DNA from: an uncultured Saprospiraceae bacterium
GTDB lineage: Bacteria; Bacteroidota; Bacteroidia; Chitinophagales; Saprospiraceae
Direction: 5' to 3'
Assembly (NCBI GenBank): GCA_905480605.1
Contig: CAJQRD010000093.1
Location: 1-39,431, forward strand
DNA length: 39,431 bases
Shown: piece by piece, positions 22,302-38,558 of the stretch
How the letters are laid out: every line of letters begins with the position of its first letter
Numbering within the stretch: the stretch's first letter is position 1
Notes under the pieces: model-generated
Database searches by the model: none
Told to the model about the DNA's origin: nothing
Seen by the model: only the letters and a program-made list of their open reading frames with translations
Made by a program: the position numbers and the translations under genes

Positions 22302-23057
22302 TTATTTCAATATTTTTCGAATAAATTTATCTAAGAATTCATCTTTCTTTCTACGAGAAACGGGCACTTGAGAATCATCTTTCAAAACAACAGAACCCTC
22401 TTTTAAATACCTTTTTATTTTGTCAGTATTGATAATATGGCTTTTATGACAGGTATAGAATCCATAAGGTTCTAGCAAGTCTTTAAATATTCCAATATTA
22501 TAGGAGCTCAATATTACTTCTGTATTTACAAGGTATATACGTGTATATTTATCCCATCCTTCGCATCTAATAATTTCAGAAATGGTTACGAATTCATATG
22601 CATTAGACCCAGGAATTGCGATTCTCCTATCTTTAGCTGAAGTACTTACCAAGTTATGCTTCAATACCTTGTACCGCTCCAACTCCATTTTGCTAGAAAT
22701 TCGCCCAATTGCCCGATCTACAGCCATTTTTAAATCTTCAGTATTGAGAGGTTTAAGAAGATAATCAACTGCGCTGACTTTTAATGCCTGAATAGCATAT
22801 TCACTGAATCCAGTAACGAAAATAATTTCAAAATAAATGCTGTCAATTTTTTTGAGAAGATCAAAGCCAGTCTCACCCGGCATGGAAATATCCAAAAATA
22901 AAATATCAATCTCAGTTGTTTTTATTTTAACGTATGCTTCTGATACGTTATTAGCCGATGCCACAACTTCTATATTGGGACAATATTTATTTAATTTAAT
23001 CTTTAGAACTTCTTGCAATTTGATTTCATCATCTACAATCATTGCTTTATACTTCAT
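22302..23057 (-). CDS. LytTR-family response regulator
   Basis: Cytoplasmic response regulator of 251 residues. The receiver domain (1-120) has the acidic pair Asp9/Asp10, phospho-acceptor Asp56 in ILFLDISMPGETGFDLL, Thr82 and Lys102 (LLKPLN). The LytTR DNA-binding domain (about 145-251) has IAIPGSNAYEFVTISEIIRCEGWDKYTRIYL and FYTCHKSHIINTDKIKRYL, the normal Bacteroidota pattern. The gene starts inside the end of the kinase gene (4-base ATGA overlap), so the two formed a two-component system of the LytS/LytR kind. The kinase is frameshifted, so phosphorylation of this regulator may have lost its normal source. Confidence 0.92.
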   Translation of the reverse strand: MKYKAMIVDDEIKLQEVLKIKLNKYCPNIEVVASANNVSEAYVKIKTTEIDILFLDISMPGETGFDLLKKIDSIYFEIIFVTGFSEYAIQALKVSAVDYLLKPLNTEDLKMAVDRAIGRISSKMELERYKVLKHNLVSTSAKDRRIAIPGSNAYEFVTISEIIRCEGWDKYTRIYLVNTEVILSSYNIGIFKDLLEPYGFYTCHKSHIINTDKIKRYLKEGSVVLKDDSQVPVSRRKKDEFLDKFIRKILK

Positions 23058-26022
23058 AGATTTATATTTAAATTATTAAACTCAATAAATACTTTTGTGC
23101 CAGGAAATTCTTTATCGTTGGTTACAGGTGTAATTAATATTTTCAAATCACATACTTCGGTACTTTTTAGGACTTCAACCCTTTTTAATATATTAGACAT
23201 GCCTCTACTGACATGTAATTTAGAGCTATACTTTTCAGCATTTTCCCGCCCAACACCGTTATCTACTATTTCGCAAATAAGATGCCCATTACGATTAAGT
23301 TTAAAATCAATTGATACTTTACCCTTACCATCTTTCCTCAATTGCAAACCATGATTGATAGCATTTTCTACAAACGGTTGAAGAAGCATAGAAGGAATTT
23401 TAATGCTTTGAATACTTACATCATCACTCACACGAATTTCATACTTAAACAAAAACTCAAATCTCATTATCTCTAAATCGAGATAATCCCTTAAAAGCTT
23501 AATTTCATTATCCAGCACAATCATGTTCTCTATAGCTGACTCTAAATACTGGCGCATAAGGTGAGCAAACTTGGTAAGATACAAATCAGCCTCATCTATT
23601 TTGTGCGTTTGTATATAATACTGAATTGAACCTAAGGCATTGAAAATAAAATGAGGATTCATTTGTGACCTTAAACTCTCCATTTGCAACTCAGCAATTT
23701 TACTATTTACAGCCTTTTCCTTCTTCATTTCCTCATTATAAAACCTCTCCCTCCGTTTTACTAAAAAATAAACAAATAGACTTCCAATAGAAAACAATGC
23801 AATAAAAAGCCAAGGTGATTTCCAGAACGCTAGCCGTATTGTAAATTTATAATCTTTTGAGGTGACATAAGAATTACCAAAAGCATCAGTTGCTTTTAAC
23901 CTCAATGTATAATTAGCAGATGGTAATTCATTATATTTCACCTCAAGTTGCTTGGTGCTGTTCCATGATTCATCAATAGGACTTAACTGATATTCGTAAA
24001 TTACGTTTCCTTTACTTTGGAAGTCTAACAACTTAAATTCTACCAACAGGTCATTTAAATTAGGCGAAAATGATTCTTGCGTATCAGGAACCAGGATTCT
24101 ATCTCCCATGTATACCTTATGTGTAAAACTAGAATCATCCATTGATACAACAGACTCTGGAAATTCATTTTTAAGAACGACAAGACCGTCCCCAGTCGCT
24201 AGTAATAACTCATTTTTTTCAATTAAAAAATCATATACTACATTAGAAGATAGACCATCTTTTCTATCAAAAATATAATTCTCATTAAAACCAACGCCTT
24301 CTAACTCTCCAACAATCAATCCATTCTTAGAAGCCATATAAATTAAATTATTATGAGATAGAATTTTACTTATTGAGTTCCTATTTGATACTAACTGAAA
24401 TTGATTATTAATTAAATATACAATCCACTATTTATGGTGCCCACCAACAAATTGTTCTCGTCTATAGAATAAATGCTACATATTTCATCAGGTAAAATTA
24501 GTTTAGGCTCTAATGAATCCCCATTAATAAGAATTAGGTTTTTAAAATTGGAACAATATATTCTATTACTGTAAGATGATTGATGGAGGGTAGTAAATTT
24601 ATTATAAGCTAAAAATTTAATTTCTTTATTACTAAAATTAATGACAATTAAAAAATTTGAATTATTAAAATAAATGTTGTTCGAAATCTTATCTACTAAT
24701 ACTTCTCTCATATTGGTAAAAATTCTGTTATTTCCCAACAATGTATCAATTGCAAAACTCTTGATATCAATATTAAATGACTGTTCAAAAGAATTAATAT
24801 TTAATTCCGATGAATTTAAAACAACTGCATTTTTTGTTTGGCTAAGAACAACATCTTGATTTAACAGTTGATAAGCATTATTAAATCTTACGTTGTCTTC
24901 AAGTTTATCAATTAATTCTAACTGTCTGTCAAATTCATACAAAGAAAATTTGTCAGTAACCAGAAATACCTTTTCCTTAATTTTAAATATTGACTTAAAT
25001 ATATTCTCCTTTGTGTCTTTAGATTTATAATTTCTTGAACCAACCTCTCTTGATGTAAAAAAGAACAGGCCACCTTCTTCTGATCCCACCCAATAGTTTC
25101 CTTTACTGTCCTTGTAGTAACGAAGTAGGGTATATTGATCAGTAATATTCTGGGGGACGAAGCTATTGATTAAACCCAAATCTTCGCCAATTTGGATTGT
25201 CCCAAGACTTGTGTCTAAAAAATATGAACCATCATAATTAACACTTAAAGCAATATCTTTTGGCTTACTTTTAAAAATTTCATCCCATAAGTAATACTCT
25301 ATTCTATTATCGATAACATTTCTCAGAATTAAAAAATTAGAATTGAACATTACATTTAAATTCATCTCAGCAATGTAATAAATCTTAACATTCCAATCAC
25401 ATTTATTTATGATAGACTCTGGTACATTCAATTTGGTTCTAATCAAACTTCCATTTATAGTATCTACATTTAAAAATTCAAATGAATCATCATTTTTAAT
25501 GAGGGCTGTTGATGGTAAAATATTGTAATTAAATTTAGCAGAACTTAAAGTATTTGCTAGTTTAGTAAACTTAGTGTTTAAAAGACGTGCCTTCCCATTA
25601 AACAATTCAAAATTTCTTCCTTCATTCATATACACTACTCCATCAAGTACTCCGGAAAAAACAAAAATAGAATCATTCCCATTTTTTAATGCAAACAATG
25701 AATCTTGCTTAATACAAGTAATCATAGAATTAAATGAATTGGCATACAAAACCCCCAAAGAATCCTTCATCATTAGAATTACATCATTTCCATTTAATCC
25801 ATCTAAAGTTGAATAATTCTTAAATTGATAACCATCAAATTTTGAAATCCCATTTTCAGTATAAGCCCAAATACTTCCATTATCATCTTCAATAACGCCA
25901 TATACGTAATTGGTTGGTAACCCATCTGCTATTGTATACTGTGCATAATTATACTCTTGACCCTGGCCAAGCAAATAGCCACTCCAACTGATAATCAAAA
26001 CCACAAATAATAGAAACCTCAA
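23054..26022 (-). pseudogene. propeller sensor histidine kinase of LytS type, frameshifted
   Basis: The first part (26022-24412) encodes a signal-like segment (RFLLFVVLIISWSGYLLG) and beta-propeller repeats with NYVYGVIEDDNGSIWAYTENGISKFDG, and stops at TAA 24412-24414. The second part continues the propeller in another frame (YLINNQFQLVSNRNSISKIL, then MASKNGLIV at 24337), a Y_Y_Y domain, one membrane helix (SPWLFIALFSIGSLFVYFLV), and a LytS-type kinase with the phospho-acceptor His in SQMNPHFIFNALGSIQYYI and N-box LLQPFVENAINHGL. Around 24409-24416 the frame would be restored by removing two bases of ATAT (giving GLYLINNQF). The first codon is TTG, with a stop immediately upstream. The second part could be read only if a frameshift occurs; from its own ATG it would start within the propeller and lack a signal peptide. 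Confidence 0.85.
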
Positions 26023-26397: not shown

Positions 26398-26401
26398 ATA
26401 G

Positions 26402-26474
<73 letters not shown>

Positions 26475-32898: not shown

Positions 32899-34416
32899 TT
32901 ATGGTCTGTAACTAACGGTAAGGTTTAAACCCAAATGATTATCGTTTGTATTGTAAAAACTAGTTTCTTGTAAAATTGAATTTATTCTATATTGTATAAA
33001 TGGTGACACACCAATTCCAATAGCTTTATACCTCCACTCTACACTCATTCCTATTCTTCCTGACAAACCAGAATTTGATTTATAGCTACTATCTTCATTA
33101 GAATTAAATTTGACAATTCCTGAACTTAACTCATCAAAATAATATCCAGAATGATCACTTAGTAAATTGTAGTGAAAGCTTGTTTGTAAGCTTAAACCTA
33201 AAGCCCCAAAACGTAAAACTTCTTTTCCAACACCAAGTCCTACATCTATATACTTATGCCTTCTATTCCAATTTACATTGTTAAATGTAGTAGTCGTTTG
33301 CTGGAGTTCGACTCCTTGACTTTGTACAATTCCATTAGCATCAATATGTTGCCCAGTACCTGCAACCGTTTCCACAACCGTTACCACATCTGAGTTTTTA
33401 AATACACTATTTTGTGCATAGTATGAAATACCTCCAAATAGCTTCCATCCTTTATTATTTTCCAAACCAAATTCTAAACTATTAGAGAATCCATACAAAC
33501 CTGATTCTTTACTAAATTCATTTGTTTTAAAGTCTGAATTCGTACTTCTTATACGGGGACTAGATATACTCCTGTTAACACCAGCATTAATAGAAAAAAC
33601 AGGCAACCAACCATTATCTTTACGTTCAGTGACATCCACAAAAGTAAAACTCCCAGGTAGTGCATAAGAGTTCAAGCGATCATTTAATGAAAGACTTGAT
33701 AGATTGATACATTTCAGAAATGGGATTGAATTACTTTGCAGTTCATATGCATTATAATTATCTAATGAATCCAGATGCTTATTTGCATTTTTTTCTGTAT
33801 CAGAAATGCTGTTCAATAACAATTTACTGTATTCTGCATTCTGGATTAAAGCACCAAAACTATAATCACCATTAGTTTGTACATTCAAGTTATTTTGAGT
33901 TATATTAACTGTGTTACTTATATTTAATCCAGAATTACTGATACTATTTCTATTGTTGCTTAGTTTAAATTGACTTGCGTTATAAATACTGTTATTTGAT
34001 AATTCATCTTTATTGGTAAAAGAACTTTCCGCTTCATAACTTTCAGTCTCCAAACTATTAGAATCGGATGCCTCTTTTGTAGTTATATTAGTATTACGCG
34101 TTTCATGAGAGTTAGACAAGTTTAAACTATCAGTTGCTTTTATAGAACTTAATATATTTTCACTTTGACTATTGTGACTAAGTGATATTTTTCTGTCCTC
34201 AGAATTAATATAATCTGACATTGCCAAATAAACAATACCACCACCAATCATAACAGCCAAAGCCAATCCTAGCAAATAGAATAAAAACGGTCTGTCCTTC
34301 TCCTTACTATTAAGGTGAGGGGAAACTTTATCCCAGAGTTGCTCAGTATTGATTTCAAACTCAAGGTTTTCAAGTACTGATTTAAATTCTTTTTCTTTAT
34401 CATTTAATGATCCCAT
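32899..34416 (-). CDS. anti-sigma-like protein with inner-membrane helix and C-terminal beta-barrel
   Basis: 505 residues in four parts. Residues 1-42 form an acidic cytoplasmic segment (EFKSVLENLEFEINTEQLWD, then KVSPHLNSKE) like the sigma-binding end of small anti-sigma factors. Residues 44-65 (FLFYLLGLALAVMIGGGIVYLA) are one membrane helix. Residues 66-267 are a Ser/Asn-rich, low-complexity linker. From about 268 to the end (VFSINAGVNRSIS, SLEFGLENNKGWKLFGGISYY, YIDVGLGVGKEVLRFGALGL, GIGVSPFIQYRI, LGLNLTVSYRP) the strands alternate as in an outer-membrane beta-barrel. There is no signal peptide. The gene sits 18 bases after an ECF sigma gene. The layout agrees with dual membrane-spanning anti-sigma factors known from Bacteroidota, so it probably holds the sigma factor inactive until a signal reaches the barrel. 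The topology is a prediction. Confidence 0.75.
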   Translation of the reverse strand: MGSLNDKEKEFKSVLENLEFEINTEQLWDKVSPHLNSKEKDRPFLFYLLGLALAVMIGGGIVYLAMSDYINSEDRKISLSHNSQSENILSSIKATDSLNLSNSHETRNTNITTKEASDSNSLETESYEAESSFTNKDELSNNSIYNASQFKLSNNRNSISNSGLNISNTVNITQNNLNVQTNGDYSFGALIQNAEYSKLLLNSISDTEKNANKHLDSLDNYNAYELQSNSIPFLKCINLSSLSLNDRLNSYALPGSFTFVDVTERKDNGWLPVFSINAGVNRSISSPRIRSTNSDFKTNEFSKESGLYGFSNSLEFGLENNKGWKLFGGISYYAQNSVFKNSDVVTVVETVAGTGQHIDANGIVQSQGVELQQTTTTFNNVNWNRRHKYIDVGLGVGKEVLRFGALGLSLQTSFHYNLLSDHSGYYFDELSSGIVKFNSNEDSSYKSNSGLSGRIGMSVEWRYKAIGIGVSPFIQYRINSILQETSFYNTNDNHLGLNLTVSYRP

Positions 34417-34434
34417 AACTTCAATTTAAGGATT

Positions 34435-35022
34435 TTAACTTCTAATTATTTTAAGACTTGGTTCACTAGGTTTTGCTGATTTATTTAAGAATGAAATTTT
34501 CATACTTTCATTTGCAAATGCCTCAGTGATCATCTTTCTTGCTCTAGAAACCAGGGAGCGTGAACTGCTTTCCGTAATTCCTAAGTATACTCCAACTTCT
34601 TTATGTGAATAACCTTCAATCAAAAACATATTTATGGCAACTCTGTATTGATAAGGAAGTGTTTCTAAAAAACGCATCACATCATTTTGTTCCAATTTCA
34701 ACGAAATATTTTCATTGTTTGAAGGTTCAACTATTTTTTCAATTTCTGATGACAAGTGTCTTTTCTCTTGTCTCAATATATCAAGGCATTTCTTTGCTGT
34801 CACCGATCCCATCCAACTCTTAAACTTCCCTTGCTCTTTGTACAAATGAATTTTATTAATAATTTGAATCAAGGACTCTTGCAAACAATCTTGAGCCAAG
34901 GTGCTATCTGCTGCATACCTTCTACATATAGCAAAAAGATAGGTAGAATAGGTTTCAACCAAGGCTTTGTAAGCCAGTTGATTACCCGATAGACAACCTT
35001 TTATAATATCTTTTTCGCTCAA
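34435..35022 (-). CDS. ECF-type RNA polymerase sigma factor
   Basis: Alternative sigma factor of 195 residues. Region 2 spans about 10-80 (AYKALVETYSTYLFAICRRY, DSTLAQDCLQESLIQIINKI, FKSWMGSVTAKKCLDILRQ) and region 4 about 115-170 (LETLPYQYRVAINMFLIEGYSHKEVGVYLGITESSSRSLVSRARKMI), where the SHKEVGVYLGITESSSRSLVSRARK helix-turn-helix contacts the -35 element. It has no sigma 1 or 3 region, so it belongs to the ECF group. It lies between a lipoprotein gene (17-base gap) and the anti-sigma-like gene (18-base gap). Its likely targets include its own operon, but no ECF-type promoter could be read without related sequences. No SnoaL-like or other C-terminal extension is present beyond a short basic tail. 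Confidence 0.93.
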   Translation of the reverse strand: MSEKDIIKGCLSGNQLAYKALVETYSTYLFAICRRYAADSTLAQDCLQESLIQIINKIHLYKEQGKFKSWMGSVTAKKCLDILRQEKRHLSSEIEKIVEPSNNENISLKLEQNDVMRFLETLPYQYRVAINMFLIEGYSHKEVGVYLGITESSSRSLVSRARKMITEAFANESMKISFLNKSAKPSEPSLKIIRS

Positions 35023-35039
35023 TTTATAATTGCTTATTC

Positions 35040-36716
35040 CTACTTATTAATTTTGGACAATATTACTCCCGATATCGGGTAATTGCCTGCCACAGGTGGA
35101 TTTATCGTTTGCGCCCATAAAACACCTGAGAAACTTACTCTTAACCATCCTTCATTGGAATCATCAAAATGCGTAACATTAAAACTCTCAATACCACACC
35201 CTAACTCAGAATTCTCACATGATATTGCATAACCATTGTCACCAAAATCAGGCTCTTCAATGAATATGCGAACCTCTTTTTCGGTATACTCTCTCTCAAT
35301 CGATCCATCAAAATGCAATCTTAAACTTTGAGTACTGGATTTCAAACTTGTCATTTCCATCCCTGGTTCAACATCAAATGAATCATAAGCATGTTCTTCG
35401 CCATTTATAACTACATATCCAAACCCATTTTCAAATGATTCACAACTTGATACTATTGTCAATTCGTCTGAAATATCAATTGACCATGAAAACTGAGGCC
35501 CATTCTGTTGCAATGTCTTATCAGTACCTGAAATATCAAATTCATTTTTACAAATTGGTATCCATGTATCAATTTCTGCATCATTGAAAACATACACAAA
35601 TGAATTATCTTCAGAGCTTACATTAATAGCTTGAACATCCTCAATCTCCCCTTCACAATTAATGACCTTAGTTTTTATATTATAAATAAGATCCAAATCA
35701 TCATTGATCAGAATTGCATATTGGCTCTCACTTTCTTGAGTTTCTAAATTTTTAGATTCTAAAACATCCAAACAAGGTGTAAGAATATTCAATTCTACAT
35801 TTGAATTAATTGGGAATAAACTAGCCCAACGTCCATGAGCTGTTGAATAATACTTTTTCTCCTCAGATAAAAATGACATATAAGAAACTCTGTTTGATTC
35901 TTTAACCATTGTTCCTTCAGTGTAAACCCCAATTTGATAATCAGAAATAATAAAAACACCTAAGTCAGAAACAGCTATTTTATCATCACCAGTAATATTA
36001 TCATGAACCAGAGTTATTTGTCCAAACTGGTTGAGATGAAATATTGATTTGCCATTATACTTACTTCCTTTTATCACGATATGAGAACTTTCTTTTTGGT
36101 TTCTCACTTTTGTATTCTTAGTACTAGCATTTATAAATAGTAAAGTTGAATTATACAACATCACTTCATTTTCACCATCATAGGCCAAATTTCCCAATTG
36201 GTTGATAATCTCGACATCATTGGTAACAGTATAATCAATTAACAAATCACTTTTAACGACAGCATTATCTTGACCAATAAAAGCGCTGGCACCTAATTCC
36301 AAATCAACCCCAGTTGACATATTCGTTGTTAAAGCATTTGAAGGGCTGTATGAAAAAGATCTAGTCCCGGAAAACGAAGAGATTTCTATGTAATTGATGT
36401 CATTTTCTATCAAAAGCGGATTGGCTATACCAACCAACCTATTATCTCTAAACAACTCAAAGATTTGACCTTTTTTTGTTGCAACATCTAGGTAACTATA
36501 GAAGATATTTTGCCCTGAGACCAAAGTTTGTCCATCCATCATCAATTCAAAAGACGCAATGTCTTCTATACCGTAAGTGATGATTTTTCCAGTAATGCCA
36601 GTCTCCATCGTAGTTGTAGAAATTTCTTTTTCAACATGCTTCGAAGACCCGTCGAAGTCATCATAACAGCCCGAAAAAGCTAGGAAAGTAAATAAGATGT
36701 ATAATTTACGAATCAT
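35040..36716 (-). CDS. surface lipoprotein of unknown function
   Basis: Predicted lipoprotein of 558 residues with the lipobox FLAFSGC (Cys17), followed by YDDFDGSS, an acidic stretch like the Bacteroidota lipoprotein export signal, so surface exposure is likely. The next 100 residues (GITGKIITYGIEDIASFELMMDGQTLVSG, and DVATKKGQIFELFRDNRLVGIANP) resemble a carboxypeptidase-regulatory-like beta-sandwich, and the rest is beta-rich with many Asp, Ser and Asn and a few Cys near the C-terminus (ENSELGCGIESF). I do not recognise a defined family. It is the first gene of the operon with the sigma and anti-sigma genes and the giant T9SS protein, so it may sense a ligand for the barrel or support assembly of the giant. 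Confidence 0.7.
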   Translation of the reverse strand: MIRKLYILFTFLAFSGCYDDFDGSSKHVEKEISTTTMETGITGKIITYGIEDIASFELMMDGQTLVSGQNIFYSYLDVATKKGQIFELFRDNRLVGIANPLLIENDINYIEISSFSGTRSFSYSPSNALTTNMSTGVDLELGASAFIGQDNAVVKSDLLIDYTVTNDVEIINQLGNLAYDGENEVMLYNSTLLFINASTKNTKVRNQKESSHIVIKGSKYNGKSIFHLNQFGQITLVHDNITGDDKIAVSDLGVFIISDYQIGVYTEGTMVKESNRVSYMSFLSEEKKYYSTAHGRWASLFPINSNVELNILTPCLDVLESKNLETQESESQYAILINDDLDLIYNIKTKVINCEGEIEDVQAINVSSEDNSFVYVFNDAEIDTWIPICKNEFDISGTDKTLQQNGPQFSWSIDISDELTIVSSCESFENGFGYVVINGEEHAYDSFDVEPGMEMTSLKSSTQSLRLHFDGSIEREYTEKEVRIFIEEPDFGDNGYAISCENSELGCGIESFNVTHFDDSNEGWLRVSFSGVLWAQTINPPVAGNYPISGVILSKINK

Positions 36717-36928: not shown

Positions 36929-36965
36929 GTGATATGACACACTTCCTTTAATTTAAATACATTTG

Positions 36966-38558
36966 ATGAAACGTATATATCTGATAATAGCTTTTGCCAC
37001 TTTGGTTAATATCACTTTTGCCCAACATTCTGACTGGATAGTAAAATTTGATAGAAAACCAGATATTTCACAGATAATCACGAGGTCTTCACTATTCTCT
37101 AGTATTGAAGTACTAAGTAAAACTTTGAATGTCTATAACCTTAAAACAAGCAAAGAGGTCTTAAGCAATGACATTTATAAGCTATTGCCTCAAGTACAAA
37201 ATGTTTCATACAACGCTCCCGTAGAGAAAAGAAGTGTAACACCAAATGATGTGCTATTTGATAGTCAATGGAGTTTAAAACTAATTGGGGCCGATAGAGT
37301 TTGGGAAGAAACAACAGGCGGAAAGGATTTCGCAGGCAAAGATGTCGTAGTGGCTATTTTAGATGATGGTTTTGATATAAACCATCAAGACTTAGTAGAA
37401 AACTATTGGATCAATGATGGTGAAATCCCTAACGATGATATAGACAATGACAACAATGGATTTACCGATGATTTTATGGGTGTGAACATTCAAGATAATA
37501 CAGGAATACATCCAGGTGTTTTACATGGCACTCAGGTAGCAGGAATTATTGGCGCAAGGGGAAATAACGCGAGGGGAATTGCAGGAATAAATTGGAATAC
37601 TAAAATCTTATTGGTTAGTGGCGTTTCAAATATTGGTCAAATAATAGAAGGACTTGAGTATCTGTATGATTTGAAAAAGAAGTACTTAGACACAAATGGA
37701 GCCGAAGGAGCAAACATTGTCGTAAACAATTTTTCAGGAGGTATAAGCTTCCGATTTCCAAGTGAATTTATGGATTGGTGTGATCAATATGATCTTCTTG
37801 GCACAGTAGGAATATTATCTGTTGGATCAGTTGCTAATGCAGACTTTGATGTTGAAGTGGAAGGTGACTTGCCTACACTTTGTGACAGTGATCACCTGAT
37901 TATGGTTACTAATAGTGATATTTCTGATACTAAAGTTTTGGCTTCAGCTTATGGTTTAACTTCTGTAGACCTGGCTGCACCAGGGGAGGAAATTATTAGC
38001 ACCGGTATTGGTAACGATTACAAAGCAATAAGTGGAACCTCAGCATCTGCTCCACACGTAGCTGGCGCTATAAGTTTGTTATATACGGTATCTTGTGATG
38101 GAATAGCAGAAGCCATAAATAACGATCCTTCCTCTTTTGCATTAACTGTCAAAAATGCAATTTTGAATAGTGTAGATGTACTTCCAACTTTAGATAAAAC
38201 ACTTTCAAAAGGAAGACTTAATATCTTCAATGCCATATTTGAATTAAATGAGATATGCGGTGAATCGAATTTGGAAGAATTAAGCATAAATGCTATTAGA
38301 CCAAATCTAATTTCGCGTAATGATATGTATAATGGTTTGTCAGTGGACTACAATACAAATGTTTTTAAAGAGCACCAAGTCTATATCCACAATACCTTAG
38401 GCCAACTTCTTCACAAATCATCCTTTAGTCCAAGTATTTTTGGCGTTCGGTCTATCAATGTTAATGTAGATAAAAGCTTTGCACCTGGTACCTACATATT
38501 GAGTATTGTAGAATCAGGAAAAGTCGCATCAAGTAAGTTTGTCGTATTTAATAAGTAA
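36966..38558 (+). CDS. T9SS-exported subtilisin-like serine protease
   Basis: S8 family peptidase of 530 residues from the ATG at 36966 (the preceding TTG is not needed). A signal peptide (KRIYLIIAFATLVNITFAQ) is followed by a short propeptide-like region (about 20-95), then the catalytic domain: Asp133 in VAILDDGFDINHQD, His187 in HGTQVAGIIGARG, and Ser359 in SGTSASAPHVAGA. At the oxyanion-hole position, where the family has Asn in SAGN, the sequence is ILSVGSVANAD with Ser288. Residues about 150-170 (NDGEIPNDDIDNDNNGFTDD) are an insertion typical of Bacteroidota subtilases. The C-terminal T9SS type A domain (about 430-530) ends SIVESGKVASSKFVVFNK. It is divergent from the lipoprotein-sigma operon, 249 bases apart, and could act on surface proteins such as its giant neighbour, but that is inference. 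Confidence 0.92.
   Translation: MKRIYLIIAFATLVNITFAQHSDWIVKFDRKPDISQIITRSSLFSSIEVLSKTLNVYNLKTSKEVLSNDIYKLLPQVQNVSYNAPVEKRSVTPNDVLFDSQWSLKLIGADRVWEETTGGKDFAGKDVVVAILDDGFDINHQDLVENYWINDGEIPNDDIDNDNNGFTDDFMGVNIQDNTGIHPGVLHGTQVAGIIGARGNNARGIAGINWNTKILLVSGVSNIGQIIEGLEYLYDLKKKYLDTNGAEGANIVVNNFSGGISFRFPSEFMDWCDQYDLLGTVGILSVGSVANADFDVEVEGDLPTLCDSDHLIMVTNSDISDTKVLASAYGLTSVDLAAPGEEIISTGIGNDYKAISGTSASAPHVAGAISLLYTVSCDGIAEAINNDPSSFALTVKNAILNSVDVLPTLDKTLSKGRLNIFNAIFELNEICGESNLEELSINAIRPNLISRNDMYNGLSVDYNTNVFKEHQVYIHNTLGQLLHKSSFSPSIFGVRSINVNVDKSFAPGTYILSIVESGKVASSKFVVFNK

Follow-up and report, generated by a model that had tools for sequence, protein, structure and literature searches.

A probable Dma-type cell-surface signalling operon with a giant T9SS cohesin/dockerin protein in an uncultured Saprospiraceae bacterium

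The stretch of DNA considered here, referred to as the window, comprises 39,431 nucleotides (nt) of contig CAJQRD010000093.1 from an uncultured Saprospiraceae bacterium, whose genome is represented by a 4.5-Mb assembly of 125 contigs. On its minus strand lies a four-gene unit encoding, in this order, a surface-type lipoprotein, an extracytoplasmic function (ECF) σ factor, a 505-residue protein predicted to reach from the inner to the outer membrane, and a giant cohesin/dockerin protein of the type IX secretion system (T9SS). Most probably, these genes make up an operon of the Dma (dual membrane-spanning anti-σ factor) type that is self-contained and serves cell-surface signalling, with the giant as its target. 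Read from the DNA itself are the genes and their order, the architecture of the 505-residue protein, a promoter motif, the start codons and the movement of this motif together with cohesin/dockerin genes in one relative. At the level of sequence the architecture and the operon are firm, while σ control and the targeting of the cargo are strongly suggested and the two-membrane topology is well predicted by modelling.

The four-gene unit and its 505-residue protein

An earlier sequence-only reading had placed the 505-residue gene, taken to encode an anti-σ factor, directly downstream of the genes for the σ factor and the lipoprotein, and the list of open reading frames (ORFs), in which all three are on the minus strand, the operon order and the Pfam matches of the σ factor bear this out. 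The unit nevertheless exceeds the span then considered, as it begins with a promoter-like site upstream of the lipoprotein gene and ends with the giant gene and a terminator-like hairpin (Table 1). The gaps between the four genes measure 17, 18 (σ to anti-σ) and 58 nt, and no terminator-like site is present in these three gaps; 7 such sites were found in the region versus 4.5 expected by shuffling.

The σ factor (195 residues) consists of σ70 regions 2 and 4 only, both over the Pfam cut-off (Sigma70_r2 and Sigma70_r4_2). Its best solved relative is SigW (5wuq, E 1.6e-18), and it is 36% identical over 170 residues to the σ factor of a Parabacteroides locus with the order σ, barrel, NigD. The lipoprotein (558 residues) carries the lipobox FSGC followed by YDDFD, which is close to SDDFE, the surface lipoprotein export consensus of Flavobacterium johnsoniae (PMC5080379), but with Tyr instead of Ser at +2; a lipobox-like Cys with a short acidic motif is found in all 16 lipoproteins of this operon type, and in 15 of these Tyr occupies +2 and Asp +4. 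It is predicted as a multi-domain β protein by a good model (mean predicted local distance difference test, pLDDT, 80.9), for which the fold search returned no close or informative structural match (best TM-score <0.25), and is proposed to act as a surface sensor or antagonist. The giant (1652 residues) has a signal peptide as well as Cohesin (2.2e-18) and Por_Secre_tail (3.1e-10) domains over their cut-offs, with Dockerin_1 at 19.5 bits remaining below its cut-off of 22.9. Among six other giant-side proteins, cohesin is over the cut-off in three (L098, L101, L106), dockerin in four (L098, L099, L106 and a 195-residue protein of genome G008), and the sorting domain is present in five, the exception being the 195-residue protein.

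Regarding the 505-residue protein, the sequence-only reading had described a chain without a signal peptide, with one membrane helix, a Ser/Asn-rich linker of about 200 residues and a barrel-like C-terminal part, all of which were recovered. By hydropathy there is a single transmembrane (TM) helix at residues 44-66 and no signal peptide, residues 1-35 being free of any hydrophobic stretch (largest 12-residue mean 0.27). Linker residues 67-266 contain 18.5% Ser and 16.5% Asn. The AlphaFold2 (AF2) model, built from a 13-row alignment and fair overall (mean pLDDT 59.3, predicted TM-score 0.48), has helices at residues 6-16, 24-34 and 44-70, a pLDDT below 50 over residues 110-266, that is, most of the tether, and strands over residues 271-503 with a ten-residue mean pLDDT of 54-94; the protein modelled alone is thus predicted to possess a C-terminal barrel. 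Foldseek returned 98 matches with E <= 0.001, and all 50 matches listed are outer-membrane barrels; the superposition with OmpA (9fzc) has a TMt of 0.71 and a root-mean-square deviation (rmsd) of 5.0, and that with NspA (1p4t) a TMt of 0.75 and an rmsd of 13.0.

Some observations weigh against a two-membrane anti-σ factor: the N-terminal blocks, which would bind the ECF σ factor, are modelled at a modest pLDDT of about 55-70, and the barrel has no counterpart among the Pfam barrel families. The protein as a whole is without a match in Pfam or NCBIfam, and the anti-σ profile found no meaningful match among solved structures. A coevolution signal between σ and anti-σ factors (91 pairs, top-10 mean 0.221 vs 0.135 in 12 shuffles) was set aside because the top pairs share the column of residue 7, a sign of relatedness rather than of contact.

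The gene quartet, which the sequence-only reading had suggested looking for in relatives, was found in other genomes as well. Of 60 related genomes, 14 gave a match in a protein search, and together with a contig scan by σ alignment this led to 16 genomes with this σ type and lipoprotein: the window, G002, G003, G005, G006, G008, G009, G011, G012, G013, G030, L017, L018, L019, L020 and L021 (L016, being the G006 contig under another handle, was counted once). The trio of lipoprotein, σ and anti-σ genes is present in 15 of the 16, the contig of the last (L020) ending inside the σ gene, and the giant comes next in 14 of the 15, nine of these being independent of the five profile seeds. The operon of G006, a genome of the same genus, was read across two contig ends, and the apparent splitting of its barrel from its N-terminus was dismissed as an assembly break, because each of the two frames is cut off where its contig stops. 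Compared with those of the window, the σ factors are 49-78% identical and the anti-σ factors only 20-27%; the window and 13 close full-length relatives all encode one chain of 463-505 residues whose parts are arranged alike, with a linker of 156-203 residues. A search of viral contigs gave no relative.

A promoter-like dyad and its movement with cohesin/dockerin genes

The 16 upstream regions were found to contain a dyad, TTGCAGCG-N16-CTTTATA, at fixed spacing and about 40-80 nt upstream of the lipoprotein start. The fixed pattern occurs in 10 of the 16, whereas 300 Markov-type shuffles averaged 0.07 such regions and never exceeded 2. When each locus was left out in turn, the dyad site came first among all positions of its own locus in 14 of 16 cases and second in L017, and the site of the window ranked 1 of 78774 positions. 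The lipoprotein starts of L018, L019 and L021 had been shifted by eye to internal Met codons, after which the dyad was located by hand in L019 and L021. In the genome of the window the dyad is present once in perfect form, never with one mismatch and six times with two. Outside the operons, ten relatives have five one-mismatch dyads, of which three (L147, L148, L154) fall within unrelated ORFs, and 30 other loci, most with paralogous σ operons, gave weak matches only (E 0.035 or worse), none before a σ operon.

The clearest case is that of G008, whose assembly is 78% complete. There, the lipoprotein, σ and anti-σ genes are followed directly by recQ on the other strand and the giant is missing, whereas in G003 and G005 the giant sits between the anti-σ gene and recQ (the RecQ proteins of G008 and G003 are 54% identical). 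On another G008 contig (L172:775-5521), a dockerin and a cohesin gene each have their own one-mismatch dyad: one copy is located 85 nt before the gene of the 195-residue dockerin protein, which is followed by a 1160-residue giant (profile E 3.9e-217), and the other 269 nt upstream of a cohesin gene that runs off the end of the contig. The probability of this arising by chance was put at 8.8e-6 (two of three sites) or 1.3e-4 (two of ten), an estimate made after the fact that assumes 30 target genes. Because the dyad went along when these genes left the G008 operon, the cohesin/dockerin genes appear to be targets of the σ factor, and this joint movement is the best evidence pointing to them as such; with the operon structure, it also favours the wiring to a giant T9SS cohesin/dockerin protein that had been put forward at the outset.

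Not all results on the dyad fit so well. The L021 motif is weak (leave-one-out rank 45). The window's genome has 174 sites with up to 3 mismatches, compared with 92 for the reversed pattern; in the ten relatives, the numbers of sites with up to 2 mismatches are 115 for the dyad and 47 for this control. Given this excess of weak sites, a wider regulon or an effect of composition is possible. A covariance-free model of the dyad (R1), built from the operon sites, has the operon site as its top match in each of 11 genomes, these being the sites from which it was made, and its best non-operon matches are the G008 dockerin site (E 0.0019), G012 C188 (0.0048) and G003 C120 (0.0114); it thereby recovers the dockerin-side site of G008 but not the cohesin-side one. 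The excess of weak sites would suit a different explanation, in which the giant is a mere passenger downstream of a self-regulating σ/anti-σ pair whose true targets lie elsewhere, for instance near the sites found 23 nt upstream of a 126-residue ORF in G012 (L189) and before an outer-membrane-like protein in G003 (L190). We consider this quite unlikely, since the giant stays in place except in G008, where the dyad precedes the relocated genes, and since no gene is common to any two of the eight next-best R1 loci inspected.

The start codons follow a regular pattern too. All 16 σ genes of this operon type start at the same aligned place with TTG (9) or GTG (7) and never with ATG, their first internal Met occurring at residue 11 or later, whereas ATG is used in 15 of 15 visible anti-σ genes; from this difference, an excess of anti-σ over σ factor may be expected.

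Related σ partners and known systems

For a family-wide view, 80 σ loci were fetched from a longer list (at least 80 loci). By the rule applied, L020 and L025 (contig ends), L040 and L060 have no downstream protein, and that of L016, L029 and L092 is truncated, so that 73 loci with a complete protein plus the window provide 74 downstream proteins. At the loci listed, a Trp aligned with Trp28 is present in 74 of 74, barrel-less proteins included, followed by a TM helix at a median of 19 residues further on. This pattern speaks against another reading, in which the 505-residue protein would belong to the outer membrane, keep an unusual uncleaved anchor at its N-terminus and take no part in σ control, as might be supposed from the lack of a matching anti-σ model in Pfam or NCBIfam. 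Such a reading is very improbable; the architecture of the protein also equals that of Dma1 and Dma2, which act through their own σ factors (PMC13088901).

What follows the TM helix varies among the loci listed. OMP_b-brl_2 was detected in 29 of the 74 proteins, and a CHU_C T9SS sorting domain, each time over the Pfam cut-off, takes the place of the barrel in 10. The latter ten have the Trp motif, a TM helix near residue 50 and, by hydropathy, no N-terminal signal peptide, with a PKD domain before CHU_C in four. An inner-membrane anchor combined with an export signal is odd, and these anti-σ-like proteins may probe the T9SS. For short partners (<330 residues), the next gene encodes an OMP_b-brl_2 barrel in 11 of 24 scanned. 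Given the barrel, CHU_C and separate-barrel forms, the outer-membrane module seems to be exchangeable among related σ partners.

Barrels encoded apart from the anti-σ part, by genes that bring a signal peptide of their own, had been named in the sequence-only reading as evidence against a single chain. Such genes do occur in the distant loci L036 and L083, and they are absent from the window and its 13 close full-length relatives. Because of L036 and L083, the covalent link would not be essential to all versions of the system, and these loci, as well as the disorder of the tether in the AF2 model, lend some credit to the idea that proteolysis after synthesis parts the chain into a free outer-membrane barrel and an ordinary single-pass anti-σ stub under intramembrane proteolysis. 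This is conceivable yet rather doubtful, as the fusion is kept in the window and in 13 of 13 close full-length relatives, and the length of the tether is nearly fixed despite its poorly conserved sequence. An intact chain spanning both membranes is thus the reading retained here.

The window's own genome contains 27 homologues of the σ factor with E <0.001, 12 of them with E <1e-25. Eleven of these 12 are followed by a protein of 382-525 residues and the remaining one by a protein of 139; barrel evidence, mostly weak, exists for 10 of the 11 long partners. Some of the pairs have large CarboxypepD_reg lipoproteins upstream. At the C82 locus the layout of lipoprotein, σ factor, anti-σ factor and T9SS cargo is repeated with an unrelated cargo.

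The Dma family, comprising Dma1-Dma3 with Das1/Das2, was reportedly described in Bacteroides thetaiotaomicron by Pardue et al. (PNAS, 2024). The parallel with this family, drawn in the sequence-only reading, holds for Dma2 as described: an N-terminal anti-σ domain, a TM helix, a long disordered tether and a C-terminal barrel, in the same order as here and beside an ECF21 σ factor (PMC13088901). The 505-residue protein has the TM helix after a short N-terminus, the tether, the predicted barrel and the adjacent σ factor. Deletion of Dma2 strongly raises the genes of its own operon, as the dyad would predict for that of the window, and it is chiefly this operon that Dma2 induces (PMC13088901). 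There are differences, however: the window operon starts with a surface-type lipoprotein, ends with the giant and has a defined promoter motif, its barrel is without a Pfam match, and there are about 11 pairs in its genome compared with 3 Dma proteins in B. thetaiotaomicron. Profile A6 aligned with five proteins from Tannerellaceae σ-barrel loci (hhalign 98.2%, E 5.1e-14) in the barrel only and at 8% identity, and the close profile matched one of the five, L064, over residues 28-267 (E 1.4e-4). These proteins, whose next gene was confirmed as NigD-like by Pfam in two of the five loci, are presumably Dma1 orthologues, and only the barrel hints at a common origin with the Dma1 type.

Other systems resemble parts of this arrangement. 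In FecA-FecR-FecI, an outer-membrane barrel, an inner-membrane anti-σ factor and an ECF σ factor relay a surface signal to the promoter, but barrel and anti-σ factor are separate proteins that make contact in the periplasm, whereas the window encodes one chain without a TonB-dependent plug. RcsF-OmpA, in which a surface lipoprotein and an OmpA-type barrel act as sensor, involves no σ factor and is not one operon; at the window locus an interaction of lipoprotein and barrel is only proposed. The PorXY-SigP system with PorA of Porphyromonas gingivalis lets a surface protein that carries a C-terminal domain of the T9SS type feed back on an ECF σ factor and T9SS output, but it runs through a two-component system, whereas the window encodes a dedicated anti-σ factor alongside the cargo (PMC7712824). 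A search of mainly open-access literature found no description of cohesin/dockerin proteins in Saprospiraceae or of an anti-σ factor with a T9SS C-terminal domain, and among the matches listed for anti-σ and ECF factors Saprospiraceae are unmentioned, which does not prove the combination to be new to the literature.

Table 1. Positions of the features discussed, in window coordinates or, where a locus handle is given, in those of the locus
Feature	Position	Strand	Basis or remark
Promoter-like dyad TTGCAGCG-N16-CTTTATA	36766-36736	-	upstream of lipoprotein; proposed site of the operon's own σ factor
Surface-type lipoprotein gene, 558 residues	36716-35040	-	first gene of four-gene unit; ORF list
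ECF σ gene, 195 residues, TTG start	35022-34435	-	Sigma70_r2 and Sigma70_r4_2 matches
Two-membrane anti-σ candidate, 505 residues	34416-32899	-	ORF, hydropathy, AF2, Foldseek, relatives
Residues 1-43, proposed cytoplasmic σ-binding segment with Trp28, two short helices	34288..34416	-	Trp alignment; AF2, modest confidence
Residues 44-66, inner-membrane helix	34219..34287	-	hydropathy; AF2 helix 44-70
Residues 67-266, Ser/Asn-rich disordered periplasmic tether	33619..34218	-	composition, length, low pLDDT
Residues 267-505, predicted OmpA-like outer-membrane β-barrel	32902..33618	-	AF2 strands, Foldseek
T9SS cohesin/dockerin giant, 1652 residues	32840-27882	-	Cohesin, Por_Secre_tail, weak Dockerin_1; proposed cargo and target
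Terminator-like hairpin, 12 pairs and T tract	27809-27781	-	3' of giant gene
CHU_C proteins	L030:9539-10663, L035:5893-7056, L037:9533-10429, L049:6218-7093, L051:7542-8681
CHU_C proteins, further	L066:9524-10423, L070:9535-10488, L077:9537-10658, L085:9527-10465, L093:9527-10465
Split version, Algoriphagus	L036:1950-3834		short TM anti-σ, then separate secreted OMP_b-brl_2 barrel gene
Split version, Pedobacter	L083:9524-11071		short TM anti-σ, then separate secreted OMP_b-brl_2 barrel gene
Eleven σ/long-partner pairs in the window's genome	L234-L244		the window's own pair included

Neighbouring genes and the proposed circuit

Divergent to the operon lies the gene of an S8 subtilisin-like protease (36963-38558, plus strand) with a T9SS tail (TIGR04183, 24.9 bits vs a cut-off of 23). 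It was dropped as a partner of the circuit, because relatives have a different gene at that place, mostly that of a CarboxypepD/Plug outer-membrane protein together with another gene, which we take to be epimerase-like. On the other side, a tRNA-Met(cat) at 26401-26474 (minus strand) is followed by a 14-pair terminator-like hairpin (26397-26367), and at 23054-26022 (minus strand) a regulator propeller (Reg_prop) ORF ends at 24412 and a second ORF starts at 24337, the two possibly being one sensor gene split by a frame change.

In the circuit that we propose, with its signal, release step and autoregulation, the 43-residue N-terminus of the 505-residue protein would hold the ECF σ factor on the cytoplasmic side of the inner membrane, while the rest of the chain would pass through this membrane, cross the periplasm as a disordered tether and terminate in the outer membrane as an OmpA-like barrel. 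The barrel, and probably the lipoprotein as well, would sense an event at the cell surface and pass it on to the σ factor, which could be freed by pulling, by a conformational change or by cleavage of the tether. Once free, it would read the dyad and transcribe the genes of the lipoprotein, the σ factor itself, the anti-σ factor and the giant, with the TTG/GTG and ATG starts keeping the anti-σ factor in excess. A more speculative extension, to which we would give limited credence, is a closed quality-control loop in which the barrel end, with help from the lipoprotein, senses the arrival or assembly of the giant made under the σ factor and, more widely, a conserved anti-σ stub is combined with an exchangeable module, be it a barrel fused to it, a barrel with a gene of its own or a sorting domain of the T9SS through which the anti-σ factor itself would probe the secretion machine.

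New here are the promoter-like dyad before the operons and the addition of a lipoprotein start and a giant T9SS cargo to the known Dma layout. If the proposed circuit is correct, it would tie an ECF σ factor directly to one secreted surface protein, and its short promoter motif would make it both testable and portable. Two-membrane anti-σ factors would then extend from three proteins of gut Bacteroides to an environmental family in which one genome has about eleven, and they would be linked to T9SS cargo. The loci whose σ partner ends in a T9SS sorting domain instead of a barrel, in turn, raise the question of how a protein anchored in the inner membrane uses an export signal, and whether secretion itself is being sensed.

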